From contig JAKASJ010000017.1 in NCBI GenBank assembly GCA_021819085.1, forward strand, positions 1-64,000: a stretch of DNA of 64,000 nucleotides. Direction: 5' to 3'. Numbering within the stretch: position 1 is the first letter of the stretch; each line of letters opens with the position of its first letter. Position numbers and translations under genes: made by a program. Source of the stretch: Pseudomonadota bacterium. Lineage in GTDB: Bacteria; Pseudomonadota; Gammaproteobacteria; Acidiferrobacterales; UBA6901. The notes beneath the pieces are model-generated. The model did no database searches, was not told where the DNA came from, and saw only the letters and a list, made by a program, of their open reading frames with translations. Positions 10,270 to 15,354 of the stretch are shown piece after piece.

Positions 10270-11349
10270 CTAGCCGCCGTGATGGATGGCCACCGGAATC
10301 CGGCGGTTGCCGAACCGGCGGCTGAACCTGCCGAAACGGCCGGCGACCGGCGTACCGCAGACGGGACAGCGCCCGGCGGGGTCCAGCTGGTAGCCGACGA
10401 TGTCGTACCAGTCGCGCTCAATGAGCGGCAAGTGGCAGCCGGGGCAATAGGTTGTACCGCCGGCGAGGTCGTGCACGTTACCGGTGTAGACATAGTGCAG
10501 CCCGGCGCGCAGGGCGATATCGCGGGCGCGCCGCAGCGTACGTGGCGGAGTGGGCGGAACATCCATCATCCTGTAGTCCGGGTGGAAGGCGCTGAAGTGC
10601 AGCGGTACTTCCGGGCCGAGTGCATCGGCGATCCACGCACTGAGCGCCGTGAGTTCTTCGTCCGAGTCATTCTTTCCCGGAATCAGAAGCGTCGTGATCT
10701 CCAGCCATACACCGGTTTCATGGTGCAGATACTGCAGCGTGTCGAGCACCGGCTGCAAATGTGCGCCGGTGAGCTTGAAGTAAAAATCATCGCTGAACGC
10801 TTTGAGGTCGACGTTGGCGGCGTCGATCCTGGCAAAGAAATCGCGGCGCGGTTCGGGGTGTACGTAGCCGGCAGTCACCGCCACGGTGTGGATGCCGCGG
10901 GCATGGCAGGCATCGGCCACGTCCATCGCGTATTCGGCGAATATGACCGGATCGTTATAGGTGAACGCGACGCTTTCGCAGCCAGCCTGCTGCGCGGCGA
11001 CGGCGATCTCCTCGGCGGAGGCCTGGTCGGCGAGGCGGTCGGAATCGCGCGATTTGCTGATGTCCCAGTTCTGGCAGAACTTGCAGGCAAGGTTGCAGCC
11101 GGCGGTGCCGAAGGACAGGACGCTCGATCCGGGAAAGAAATGATTCAGCGGCTTTTTCTCGATCGGGTCGATGCAGAATCCCGATGAGCGTCCGTAGGTG
11201 GTCAGCACCATTCCATCGCCGATGCGCTGGCGCACGAAACATGCTCCACGCTGGCCGTCGTTCAGCCGGCAGTCGCGCGGGCACAGATCGCACTGGATGC
11301 GGCCGTCCGCGAGCCGGTGCCAGTAGCGGGCGGGGTAGGCGGCGCTCAT
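10270..11349 (-). CDS. amrS: AmmeMemoRadiSam system radical SAM enzyme
   Basis: A 359-residue radical SAM protein. The cluster-binding motif CNLACKFCQNWDISK (CxxxCxxC) lies near residue 80, after the N-terminal cysteines in CDLCPRDCRL and GACFVRQ. Near the C-terminus are CPGCHLPL and CPVCGTPV, two CxxC pairs that could bind another metal. This is the pyruvate-formate-lyase-activase-like member of the AMMECR1-MEMO-radical SAM trio. The reaction is not established, to my knowledge. The start ATG at 11349 overlaps the amrA stop by four bases, showing translational coupling. Confidence 0.93.
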   Translation of the reverse strand: MSAAYPARYWHRLADGRIQCDLCPRDCRLNDGQRGACFVRQRIGDGMVLTTYGRSSGFCIDPIEKKPLNHFFPGSSVLSFGTAGCNLACKFCQNWDISKSRDSDRLADQASAEEIAVAAQQAGCESVAFTYNDPVIFAEYAMDVADACHARGIHTVAVTAGYVHPEPRRDFFARIDAANVDLKAFSDDFYFKLTGAHLQPVLDTLQYLHHETGVWLEITTLLIPGKNDSDEELTALSAWIADALGPEVPLHFSAFHPDYRMMDVPPTPPRTLRRARDIALRAGLHYVYTGNVHDLAGGTTYCPGCHLPLIERDWYDIVGYQLDPAGRCPVCGTPVAGRFGRFSRRFGNRRIPVAIHHGG

Positions 11350-11918
11350 GGGGCTGTTCCGCCGCGGCGGGCAGGGGCCTCGCTCCACTTCTGCACCGTG
11401 TAGCGTGAAAGCCGCACCGAGTGGTGCCAGAAATCCGCAGGCAGGCCGGCCTTGCGCTTCAGATGGAACAGGAACTGGTCGGGTTCCGGCAGCTGTTCCC
11501 ACACCTGTGGCAGGAAGGTAGCACGGGCGCGGCCGAATTCCAGCACCACTCCGTCTATGCCCGGGCGCAGTATCGTCCGCGCGTGCTTTTCATCGGTCGC
11601 CACCAGAGGCTCGGCGGCAGAGAGCAGCGATATCTCGATCGCCGTGTCCGGGTATTCGTGCCGGGTGAGCGGCGCGAAGCGCGGATCACGGAACGCCGCC
11701 GCTTTGGCGTTGTTTTCGACATCGGTACGCAGCGCGCGCGTCGCCTCAAGGCTGCCGATGCAACCGCGCAGTTCCCCGTGGTGCGTGAGGGTCACGAACG
11801 TGGCTCCTGGCATCGACAGCTGCGGCGCCTCCTCGTATGCCCGGCACGCTTCATCCAGGGCAGTGGCGATGGTGTTGCGCGCAACGATCAGCAGCGCTGT
11901 GCCGAGCGTGTCAGTCAT
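11346..11918 (-). CDS. amrA: AmmeMemoRadiSam system protein A (AMMECR1 domain)
   Basis: A 190-residue AMMECR1-domain protein. The diagnostic strand HHGELRGCIGSLEATRAL is present (LRGCIG motif), followed by DPRFAPLTRHEYPDTAIEISLL and the C-terminal FLPQVWEQLPEPDQFLFHL. The molecular function of the domain is unknown; in bacteria it is almost always encoded with MEMO and a radical SAM enzyme, as here. ATG at 11918 is chosen because GAGGAG precedes it; a longer reading would overlap more of amrB. The gene overlaps amrB by eight bases and amrS by four. Confidence 0.93.
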   Translation of the reverse strand: MTDTLGTALLIVARNTIATALDEACRAYEEAPQLSMPGATFVTLTHHGELRGCIGSLEATRALRTDVENNAKAAAFRDPRFAPLTRHEYPDTAIEISLLSAAEPLVATDEKHARTILRPGIDGVVLEFGRARATFLPQVWEQLPEPDQFLFHLKRKAGLPADFWHHSVRLSRYTVQKWSEAPARRGGTAP

Positions 11919-12726
11919 GGAGTGGCTCCTCGAAGGCCATAGCCGCGTAGCCGACAACCTCTCCGCGCCCGCCCGCCGTGTCTCCGGAATTGCGCAGGTC
12001 GAGCAGCTGCGGACGCAGCCGGTGTGTGCGGGCCGCCAGGATCAGCCCCCTGACGGAGGCGCTGCCGCAGGCCTCGGCGTCGCCGACGGGCTCACCGTCG
12101 AGTGCGAGGATTGCCTCGACCGTGCGGCCGTCCGTCTCGCGTGCTGCTTCATAAGGAAGGTAATGGGACAGGTCAGTGCTGACCACGATCAGCGTTTCCG
12201 GACCGCCCCACAGAATCTCGATCACCTCGGCCACCTCGGACGGAGTCACAGCGCCGACCGCGAGCGGGAGGATCCGGAACGCCTTCAGTACTTGCTGCAG
12301 AAAAGGGAGCTGCACTTCGAGGGAATGTTCACGCGCATGCGCCGGCTCGCTCACCGTCACCTGCGGCAGGTGCATGATCGCCGAGGCGGCGTCCTGATCG
12401 ACGTCGATGGCACCGAGAGGTGTGGTGAAACGTTCCGCTCCCGGCAGCGCCAGACCGCGCACAGGCAGGCGGTGCGCCGGCCCCAGCAAAATGACACGTT
12501 TGATGCCGGCAGAGCGCCCCCGCAGGCCGGCATAGGCGCTCGCTGCCACCGCGCCGGAGTACACATAGCCGGCGTGCGGGACAATGATCGCCTTGGGTAA
12601 CGGTCCGCCGCCGGCAGATGCGGCGGCCTCCGACAGCAGATGATCCACCATGCGCACCAGTGCGACCCGTTCCCCGGGGTAGAAGCTGCCGCTCACGGCT
12701 GCCGGACGGACTCGGGACATGATCAA
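11911..12726 (-). CDS. amrB: AmmeMemoRadiSam system protein B (MEMO family)
   Basis: A 271-residue MEMO-family protein, related in fold to class III extradiol dioxygenases. The expected metal-ligand stretches are there: IIVPHAGYVYSGAVAA, LLGPAHRLPVRG, HAREHSLEVQLPFLQ, and VVSTDLSHYLPY. The human homologue MEMO1 has been reported to bind reduced copper or iron; what the bacterial protein does is not settled. It is first in the operon amrB-amrA-amrS-hydrolase. The start may be at 12726 or six bases inside at 12720 (MIM-SRV). A promoter-like pair lies 32-59 bases upstream. Confidence 0.93.
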   Translation of the reverse strand: MIMSRVRPAAVSGSFYPGERVALVRMVDHLLSEAAASAGGGPLPKAIIVPHAGYVYSGAVAASAYAGLRGRSAGIKRVILLGPAHRLPVRGLALPGAERFTTPLGAIDVDQDAASAIMHLPQVTVSEPAHAREHSLEVQLPFLQQVLKAFRILPLAVGAVTPSEVAEVIEILWGGPETLIVVSTDLSHYLPYEAARETDGRTVEAILALDGEPVGDAEACGSASVRGLILAARTHRLRPQLLDLRNSGDTAGGRGEVVGYAAMAFEEPLHD

Positions 12727-12844: not shown

Positions 12845-13255
12845 TCAATTATGTTCAGGCGGCACTTCGCGTGGCAGACGCTGGTCATCGATCGCGACAT
12901 AGGTCAGCGTGGCTTCCGTCACCTTGACGCATTCCCCGGCCCATTCCCCTTTGTGCCGCGCGCGCTCGGCATAGACCACCACGTCCACGGTTATGGAGCT
13001 GCGGCCGACCCTTACCACCTCGGCGTAGAAACTCACCAGGTCGTTTACGAATACCGGTTTGCGGAACTGGAACGCGTTTACCGCGACGGTCACGATGCGG
13101 CCGCGCGCGCGCCGGCTTGCAACAACACTGCCGGCGATGTCGGCCTGAGCCATGATCCAGCCACCGAAGATGTCTCCGGCGGAATTGGTGTCGGAAGGCA
13201 TCGGCACGACACGCAGGGTAGGGTGACGATCGGTCGGAAGGCTGTCTTCGCTCAT
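12845..13255 (-). CDS. Acyl-CoA thioesterase, YciA-like hotdog fold
   Basis: A 136-residue single-domain hotdog thioesterase that hydrolyses acyl-CoA. The pattern PMPSDTNSAGDIFGGWIMAQADIAGSV is the signature of the YciA/BFIT-type family (DxNxxGDIFGGW), with the Asp-containing helix and GRIVTVAVNAFQFRKPVFVNDLVSFYAEV following. Length equals the E. coli protein's (about 130). It is last in a unit with the ATP-grasp and metallopeptidase genes, with a 15-base gap to the ATP-grasp stop codon. Thioesterases of this type often act as broad housekeeping enzymes, so its place in the operon may or may not be functional. Confidence 0.9.
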   Translation of the reverse strand: MSEDSLPTDRHPTLRVVPMPSDTNSAGDIFGGWIMAQADIAGSVVASRRARGRIVTVAVNAFQFRKPVFVNDLVSFYAEVVRVGRSSITVDVVVYAERARHKGEWAGECVKVTEATLTYVAIDDQRLPREVPPEHN

Positions 13256-13270
13256 GAGTCGATGTCCTGG

Positions 13271-14299
13271 CTACTGTATTCTGGCGCTGGCATGCGCGCG
13301 CAAACCGAGCCGCACGATACGCTGAATGAATTCCTCGTAGTTCATTCCGGCCCTGCGCGCCGAAAGTGTGCTGTCCTCGTCCCGCGCGATCCCGGGATTG
13401 GGGTTGGCTTCGAGCACATAGACCTGCCCGGCACCGTTCAGGCGCATGTCTATGCGTGCGTAGCCGCTCATTCCCAGGGCCCGGTAGATTCTCTTGCACA
13501 GCCAGCCGATGCGTTCGGTTGTCTCCGGCGCAAGGTCGGCGGCAAATTGATAGTCGATCCCCCAGCGCTCCCGGTACTTGCCGTCCCACTTTACCTTGTA
13601 GGTGGCCATGCGTGGAGCGCCTTCGATCGCATTGCGGAAGATCAGCTCACGCGCGGGCAGTACCTGCAGTTGCACGTTGCCGAGCACCGTGACGTAGATC
13701 TCGCGGCCGTCGATGTACTGCTCGGCAATGGCATCGTCCTGGATGCGCTCGTGGATGAACTGCACGCGCTCCTGCAGCTGGCGCTCGGTTTCTACGTAAG
13801 ACGCCTGCGCAATGCCGAGAGAACCCTCCTCGGTGAGTGCCTTGACGATCACCGGGTACGGTACGCGGCGCATGGGTGGCGATTTGCGGCCGCGCGGGAA
13901 GACGCGGAAATCCGGAACCTGAATGCGGTGATAGGCGAGCAGCTTCTTGGAAAGCGCCTTGTCGCGTGCCAGCAGCAGGCCACGCGGATTGCACCCGGTG
14001 TAGGGAAGTTTCATCATCTCGAGAAAGCTCACCACATAGTAATCGAACGCCGCGATGCCGGCGAATTCCTCGAGCAGATTGAACGCGATATCCGGCTTCC
14101 ATTGTTCTATGGTCGTGCGTATCGGCGCGAGGTCGTCGTAGACTCCCACCACGTGCACTTCGTGGCCGAGTTTCAGCAGAGCATGTTTGACGTCGTACTC
14201 GGTACGGAATTTCTCCATGCGCGGATCGTCTCTGGAATGCAGGTCGTCCGGAGGAACCAGGGAGTAATGGACGAGCATCATCACGCGGAGTTTCTTCAT
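13271..14299 (-). CDS. ATP-grasp ligase, D-Ala-D-Ala-ligase-like
   Basis: A 342-residue ATP-grasp protein. The N-terminal part (MKKLRVMMLVHYSLVPP, ..HEVHVVGVYDDL) resembles the substrate domain. The ATP-binding middle is YPVIVKALTEEGSLGIAQASYV, then IAEQYIDGREIYVTVLGN. The magnesium site is YARIDMRLNGAGQVYVLEANPNPG, with the expected D-N-rich layout (D..., E.N.N). It is like but not the same as Ddl; the sequence ends EDSTLSARRAGMNYEEFI. The substrate cannot be told, but the fold joins a carboxylate to an amine. Its start overlaps the upstream metallopeptidase stop codon by four bases, so the two are coupled. Start ATG at 14299; longer readings overlap the neighbour more. Confidence 0.85.
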   Translation of the reverse strand: MKKLRVMMLVHYSLVPPDDLHSRDDPRMEKFRTEYDVKHALLKLGHEVHVVGVYDDLAPIRTTIEQWKPDIAFNLLEEFAGIAAFDYYVVSFLEMMKLPYTGCNPRGLLLARDKALSKKLLAYHRIQVPDFRVFPRGRKSPPMRRVPYPVIVKALTEEGSLGIAQASYVETERQLQERVQFIHERIQDDAIAEQYIDGREIYVTVLGNVQLQVLPARELIFRNAIEGAPRMATYKVKWDGKYRERWGIDYQFAADLAPETTERIGWLCKRIYRALGMSGYARIDMRLNGAGQVYVLEANPNPGIARDEDSTLSARRAGMNYEEFIQRIVRLGLRAHASARIQ

Positions 14300-15354
14300 A
14301 GAGTAAGGCGCGAACTGCCAGCCCGCAGTGAGCCCATATAGAGCATGATCAGCGCCGAAACCAGCGGCAACTGCGCGCACCCGCCATCTGCAGGTGCGTG
14401 CAGGTCCAGTTCATCGGCAAGCTGGGCCATGTGCGTGAGTGTCAGGTTTACCCGGTAGCGTGGTGCCGCGGTCCATAGCGAGACCGCGACCAGAGCGTCC
14501 CGGCGGTGACGCCGGATGAAGCGCGCGGCGGGCTCGGTGCGCCGGGACCTGGCGGCAGGGAAGATCCGCTCCAGTTGCTGGCGGTGAAAGCGGGGGTAGG
14601 CGGCACCCAGCCGCTCCTGTTTCTGCTCGAAATACTGGCGCAGTGTCAGGCGTAGCGTGCTTACCGAGTCGACATGGCGCCGGTTGTGCAGCGCCTGCCG
14701 CTGCTGCCCGATCTCCTGCATCAGGGCGTCGACGTACTCGAGCTTGCGCAGTGCCGGCCAGCCGCGGTAGCGCTCGTGCCAGCCCGATCGCGGGTCCAGC
14801 CACACCGCGAACGTCTCTGCCCAGTCCTCGTGCGGATGGCTCTGCGCATACCAACCGTCGAGATTTATCACGTAGCTCCGGCTGTCGGGTCGCGGCAGGT
14901 AGCTCTCCGGATAGCTGCGGGCCGCGCGTCCGAAGCGCCGCCGCCACTCATGCCTCCGATGCAGGCGATATGCATTGGCCAGCGCATGCGCCGTCTCGTG
15001 GCGCATGAGTTTCTGGCACTCCTGCCTGCTTCCGCCCTCCAGCTCCAGCATCCAGCGCTTTTCTAGCTGTGCAAGGCGGGGATGTGCGAGGTAAAAGGGG
15101 ATGGCAAACCCGGGCACGCCGTCCGGACTGAACCAGCAGTCCGACAGCCAGCAGTGCGGCCGGAATCGGATGCCGCGGCGGTCGAGTTCGCGGTATAGCA
15201 CGGAGATCTGCTGTTCCAGCGGGCTGCGTGCGAGCGTCAGGCCGAGGTCGCAAAGGCGGGTATCAAGCAGGCGCTGCTCCGACCAGCCGGCCCAGCGAAA
15301 GACGGGTTTGCGCCGGTGCGCGGCGCCGCTACGCGACAGGGCGCTCGGGCTCAT
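14296..15354 (-). CDS. Putative zinc metallopeptidase (HExxH), unknown substrate
   Basis: A 352-residue protein with no signal peptide, so probably cytosolic. The zincin motif HETAH lies at about residues 119-123, inside QKLMRHETAHALANAY. A second acidic stretch, HPHEDWAETFAVW (about residues 174-185), supplies candidate third ligands. The DWAETFA pattern matches the 'putative zinc-binding metallo-peptidase' group (PF15887-like) as I recall it. N-terminal part is Arg-rich. It is first in an operon with an ATP-grasp ligase (four-base ATGA overlap) and a thioesterase. ATG at 15354 is chosen; a longer frame runs upstream without a ribosome site. A peptide or amino-acid conjugate substrate is a guess from the pairing. 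Confidence 0.75.
   Translation of the reverse strand: MSPSALSRSGAAHRRKPVFRWAGWSEQRLLDTRLCDLGLTLARSPLEQQISVLYRELDRRGIRFRPHCWLSDCWFSPDGVPGFAIPFYLAHPRLAQLEKRWMLELEGGSRQECQKLMRHETAHALANAYRLHRRHEWRRRFGRAARSYPESYLPRPDSRSYVINLDGWYAQSHPHEDWAETFAVWLDPRSGWHERYRGWPALRKLEYVDALMQEIGQQRQALHNRRHVDSVSTLRLTLRQYFEQKQERLGAAYPRFHRQQLERIFPAARSRRTEPAARFIRRHRRDALVAVSLWTAAPRYRVNLTLTHMAQLADELDLHAPADGGCAQLPLVSALIMLYMGSLRAGSSRLTL

Follow-up and report, generated by a model that had tools for sequence, protein, structure and literature searches.

The locus studied here raises the question whether a zinc metallopeptidase and an ATP-grasp ligase encoded by overlapping genes serve one common pathway, and whether the thioesterase encoded behind them belongs to it. 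From the DNA alone it had been predicted that the genes could form a small amide- or peptide-making and -breaking pathway, in which the ligase joins a carboxylate to an amine, the peptidase would release it and the thioesterase might unload the acyl part. In the window, i.e. the whole stretch of 64,000 nucleotides that was analysed, the three open reading frames are found on the minus strand with the predicted four-base overlap and 15-base gap. The features are:

14296-15354, minus strand: zinc metallopeptidase gene, first of the pair (352 aa; distant Peptidase_Mx (PF15887) relative)
14986-15000, minus strand: HExxH zinc motif HETAH, peptidase residues 119-123 (invariant in 75/75 aligned members and 80/80 loci)
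14809-14850, minus strand: second half of the peptidase active site, YxQxHPxEDxAExF (Tyr169, His173-Pro174, Glu176-Asp177, Glu180 and Phe182 invariant)
14296-14299, minus strand: ATGA stop/start overlap of peptidase and ligase genes (four bases, coupling both genes)
13271-14299, minus strand: ATP-grasp ligase gene, second of the pair (342 aa; D-Ala-D-Ala ligase (Ddl) fold, separate clade)
13397-13411, minus strand: ligase Mg2+/ATP motif EANPN, E297-x-N299-x-N301 (essentially invariant)
13373-13378, minus strand: ligase acidic pair E308-D309 (Ser-Leu in Ddl, binding the second D-Ala carboxylate)
12845-13255, minus strand: YciA-like hotdog thioesterase gene (136 aa; local passenger outside the conserved pair)
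10270-12726, minus strand: complete AmmeMemoRadiSam set (AmrS, AMMECR1, Memo), lying downstream of the thioesterase gene at a distance of about 120 bases

The peptidase gene ends with CTATGA, the ATG of the ligase lying inside this ATGA (14296-14299), and 15 bases (13256-13270) separate the ligase stop from the thioesterase start. According to Pfam the ligase carries a Dala_Dala_lig_C domain (98.9 bits) and the thioesterase a 4HBT domain; by NCBIfam the latter is near YciA. No promoter or terminator of note was recognised at the locus.

Linkage of the two genes and their neighbourhood

Searching the genome collection with a peptidase profile yields 273 confirmed relatives, of which the best 80 loci were taken. 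These best 80 of 273 loci, nearly all from metagenome assemblies, represent about 13 phyla as named in the genome records: Gammaproteobacteria, Planctomycetota, Myxococcota, Bdellovibrionota, Acidobacteriota, Verrucomicrobiota, Gemmatimonadota, Krumholzibacteriota, Elusimicrobiota, Omnitrophota, Auribacterota, Fibrobacterota and FCPU426. The ligase gene lies directly downstream of the peptidase gene in 74 of the 80 loci (66 of them complete and 8 truncated where the contig ends), the contig stops at the peptidase in three, and no ligase follows in the remaining three (L071, L078 and L127, of which L127 contains an assembly gap), all three genomes of which possess a strong ligase match elsewhere. 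The genomes of L071 and L078 (G422, G423) are natural cases of both genes without operon coupling. In the order to which the window belongs, the ligase finds a match at E<=1e-20 in 33 of 57 genomes, the majority with 60-96% identity and the rest being Ddl-like genes, and the peptidase gene is upstream of the ligase gene on the same strand in all 20 loci fetched.

Whole genomes were also counted for both genes/peptidase only/ligase only/neither, the units being species genomes and not independent events. The counts are 15/2/0/352 in the Gammaproteobacteria sample (Fisher p 7e-25; both peptidase-only cases at contig edges), 29/4/1/115 in the Planctomycetota sample (p 2e-25; genes adjacent in 26 of 29) and 10/1/0/101 in the Myxococcota sample (p 2e-13). 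The distance matrices of peptidase and ligase correlate with r 0.81, a value reached by none of 999 permutations. In some Planctomycetota the two genes stand apart and the peptidase is divergent; one genome of this phylum (G493) has the ligase without a detected peptidase. The plasmids and phages searched gave no match to the peptidase. Because the pair persists in about 13 phyla, and the ATGA overlap in 50 of the 74 homologous loci, chance does not explain the association; peptidase and ligase form a genuine and old pair. The conservation across genomes on which the original prediction had made its case depend is thereby found, as adjacency and as co-occurrence in three groups.

The thioesterase gene was considered as a third component and rejected: it accompanies the pair in the window's own family alone, and at this position unrelated genes are found in other orders and phyla. 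Memo, AMMECR1 and AmrS, which in the window score over their family cut-offs, were rejected as partners too, as they adjoin it only within this family, and there not in every member (seen in L032, L033, L046). Since both the thioesterase and the AmmeMemoRadiSam genes are limited to one family, the three-gene reading fails, and the idea of a thioesterase that unloads the acyl part is not supported; the coupling of a peptidase to a Ddl-like ligase, conserved and with an HExxH motif that never varies, is the part of the interpretation that stands. In the other large family of the same order the gene after the pair is usually that of methionine synthase. Judging from the neighbours in both families, the ancestral block looks like an outer-membrane protein gene on the opposite strand, the pair and metH, the thioesterase and AmmeMemoRadiSam genes being later neighbours. 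When the ORFs on either side of the pair were clustered for the 80 loci and the neighbours, including those of divergent members, were scanned with Pfam, no conserved third gene was found beyond close kin; small neighbours could be missed, because these genes come from a simple gene caller that is poor on GC-rich loci and missed some known genes.

Active sites and predicted folds of the two enzymes

Across all 75 members in the alignment, the peptidase residues H119, E120, H123, Y169, H173, P174, E176, D177, E180 and F182 do not vary. The original prediction had regarded variation of the HExxH residues among homologues as a reason to drop it, and no such variation occurs in these members or in the 80 loci. 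The combination of HExxH with a downstream third Glu, which is typical for gluzincins, is present (E176 and E180 in 75/75), and Glu176 is the likely third zinc ligand. In lethal factor and the PPEPs the zinc-binding Glu is preceded by a Tyr at a distance of seven residues and followed by a second Glu at a distance of four. Y169, E176 and E180 fit this Tyr/Glu/Glu spacing, if they are, as we presume, the corresponding residues. The protein with the HETAH motif also lacks a signal peptide, as predicted: there is no hydrophobic stretch at the N-terminus (best 17-residue mean hydropathy 0.6 in the first 60 residues), and none of the 80 homologues has a signal-like N-terminus (maximum 17-residue mean 1.24), so that the peptidase is apparently cytosolic.

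The peptidase model of AlphaFold2 has a pLDDT of 90.7. In structure comparisons it resembles lethal factor (Z 9.8, rmsd 3.4 over 139), PPEP-3 (Z 8.3), the PF15887-type structure 4l7a (Z 6.9, residues 41-218) and the putative metal-dependent hydrolase 3khi (Z 5.4). All fold matches are confined to residues 37-220, the catalytic domain, and the C-terminal helical domain had no match in the fold searches run. As Foldseek with this model finds nothing below E 0.1, the statements on the peptidase fold rest on VIA-align Z scores of 5-10; when solved structures were searched with the peptidase sequence profile, all hits were weak and concerned unrelated proteins, one of them at E 0.003. The Peptidase_Mx profile PF15887 (gathering cut-off 27) scores the window peptidase with 26.6 bits in hmmscan and 27.1 bits in a six-frame search. 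It is matched around the zinc motif by all 75 members at E<=0.01 (best 2.4e-10), the match being partial (profile positions 90-165 of 236), and it has no match in 14 well-known control genomes.

A short peptidase, matched over about the first 240 profile positions and followed directly by the ligase, is found at L098 (3813-5566) and in two Myxococcota (G638:C54, G648:C173). Because this form, in which the C-terminal helical domain is missing, still stands beside the ligase, that domain appears dispensable. Two divergent peptidase relatives from Planctomycetota lack the usual adjacent ligase: one (L187, 4513-8531) lies beside a diadenylate cyclase gene, and the other (L184, 6188-13015) is clustered with a kinase, an ADP-ribosylglycohydrolase and a distant ATP-grasp protein, its adjoining 249-aa gene having no Pfam match.

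For the ligase a Ddl fold is predicted (pLDDT 92.4), with Z 33.8 and rmsd 2.6 over 312 residues against the D-Ala:D-Lac ligase 1ehi. The single-chain structure predictions proposed for both proteins thus gave a zincin-type and a Ddl-type fold. In an alignment of 67 ligases K114, K153, R282, D284 and N299 are invariant and E297 is found in 66. The substrate triad of Ddl is Glu15-Ser150-Tyr216 (E. coli DdlB numbering). In the Ddl of the window's genome (G000:C17, L171), which is encoded separately elsewhere and served as reference for this comparison, the triad is E14/S175/Y242. The pair ligase has lost it, having P26 (variable), G/A159 and W238 (Trp in 61/67) at these positions, and in the second D-Ala site Ser-Leu is replaced by E308-D309, acidic in 65/67 and 66/67 members. 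The curated Ddl models are missed (115.6 and 140.6 bits against cut-offs of 245.65 for TIGR01205 and 243 for NF002378), and the pair ligases sampled, 31 in number, all group in a single clade with support 100/100, apart from Ddl and from tandem ATP-grasp relatives. The lost triad, the acidic second site, the own clade and the separate true Ddl show that the pair ligase is not a Ddl. Since the triad is lost and the acidic Glu308-Asp309 faces the acceptor site, the acceptor is suggested to be cationic, for example the side chain of a lysine, a polyamine or a peptide of basic character, rather than D-alanine.

Possible functions of the pair

The relatives of the two enzymes make or cut amide bonds, and the pair is co-translated, co-inherited and apparently cytosolic. 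Therefore both enzymes most likely act on one shared linkage, and the pair probably makes and cuts, or cuts and makes, the same bond. The ATP-grasp enzyme would activate a carboxylate with ATP to an acyl phosphate, which would be joined to an amine, presumably one of the cationic acceptors named above. The zinc peptidase of the lethal-factor/PPEP (Pro-Pro endopeptidase) type would cleave the same class of amide or peptide and most likely remove or turn over what the ligase has added, as in RimK/RimB. We infer the amide chemistry, the cationic acceptor and the antagonistic rather than sequential order of the pair. Such a two-gene cytosolic module is the reading we tentatively prefer, giving it somewhat less than an even chance; the missing conserved third gene, the unlinked genes in some Planctomycetota and the solitary ligase of G493 count against it, as does the lack of any peptidase-ligase fusion among the proteins encountered (fusions being covered only unsystematically). 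The more specific proposal of an undescribed reversible protein or peptide modification in about 13 phyla, with a Ddl-derived ligase adding a carboxylate to a cationic acceptor and a cytosolic zincin removing it, seems rather doubtful to us.

Co-translation fits a sequential pathway as well, in which the peptidase exposes a carboxyl or amino end to which the ligase then adds an amine or amino acid, much as in the biosynthesis of RiPP-like products or peptide metabolites. The peptidase gene comes first wherever the pair is adjacent (the 20 loci of the window's order and the best 80 of 273), the genes are translationally coupled and the fold relatives of the peptidase are of the endopeptidase type; however, no conserved precursor peptide, exporter or tailoring gene was recognised among the scanned neighbours (small ORFs being covered only unsystematically), and we regard such a maturation as unlikely. 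A role in the cell wall or in murein recycling, with the ligase forming a peptide of D-amino acids and the zinc enzyme cleaving muropeptides in a VanA/VanX-like logic, would agree with the place of the ligase in the Ddl superfamily. It is made quite improbable by the change of the Glu-Ser-Tyr triad to variable, Gly/Ala and Trp, by the acidic second D-Ala site, by the genuine Ddl elsewhere in the genome and by the scanned neighbours, among which no wall genes were recognised. The two enzymes could also be of a housekeeping type and share no substrate, for example a chaperone-like protease and a scavenging ligase kept together by operon inheritance; the varied housekeeping genes around the pair and the unlinked copies in a few genomes speak for this, but co-occurrence holds across deep branches, even with the genes apart, and we consider it improbable.

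Comparison with known systems

In Pseudomonas an ATP-grasp ligase and a dedicated protease are encoded in one operon in RimK/RimB and in RloC/RloA, RimK adding glutamates and RimB regulating RimK and cutting polyglutamate (PMC12239564). The pair shares this operon design, whereas the protein families are unrelated: there a retropepsin-like (aspartic) protease is combined with a RimK-like ligase, here a zincin with a Ddl-like one, and RloA is secreted while the peptidase of the pair has no signal-like N-terminus. The pair ligase reaches 20.4 bits with the Pfam RimK profile, below the cut-off of 21, and the Ddl domain fits far better. Ligases with a dedicated protease are a small and functionally important class (RimK/RimB acting on ribosomes, Rlo on osmotic stress), from which the pair differs in its enzyme families; it is widespread over many phyla, with intact and invariant active-site residues, also in lineages from which few peptide modifications are known (Planctomycetota, Myxococcota, Omnitrophota). 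What the pair makes would be new, either as a metabolite or as a modification of proteins, and as only two genes are involved it should be easy to reconstitute. We found no published description of it in the literature searched, which does not include the 2009 amidoligase survey of Iyer et al. that may mention it.

With Peptidase_Mx (4l7a from Bacteroides caccae) the peptidase has the zinc-motif region and the fold in common, but it differs by the partial match and the extra C-terminal helical domain; we know of no link of PF15887 itself to a ligase. Lethal factor and the PPEPs share the zincin fold of the catalytic domain, a likeness of fold only that implies no toxicity. They show no detectable sequence similarity to the pair's peptidase, which in addition is coupled to a ligase and has no signal-like N-terminus. 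The Ddl/VanA family has the fold and the ATP/Mg residues in common with the pair ligase, which differs by the lost triad, the acidic second D-Ala site and its fully supported separate clade.

Among the nearest ligase relatives found (about 110-190 bits to the family profile) are two tandem Ddl-like ATP-grasp genes beside a KamA/lysine-2,3-aminomutase-type radical SAM gene in Planctomycetota (L195, 4288-10004; L197, 4584-8481). They differ from the pair by having two ligases in a row with no such peptidase seen alongside, and fall outside its clade. These tandem clusters, of which that in L195 also contains a histone-deacetylase-fold gene, possibly represent an undescribed beta-amino-acid amide pathway.
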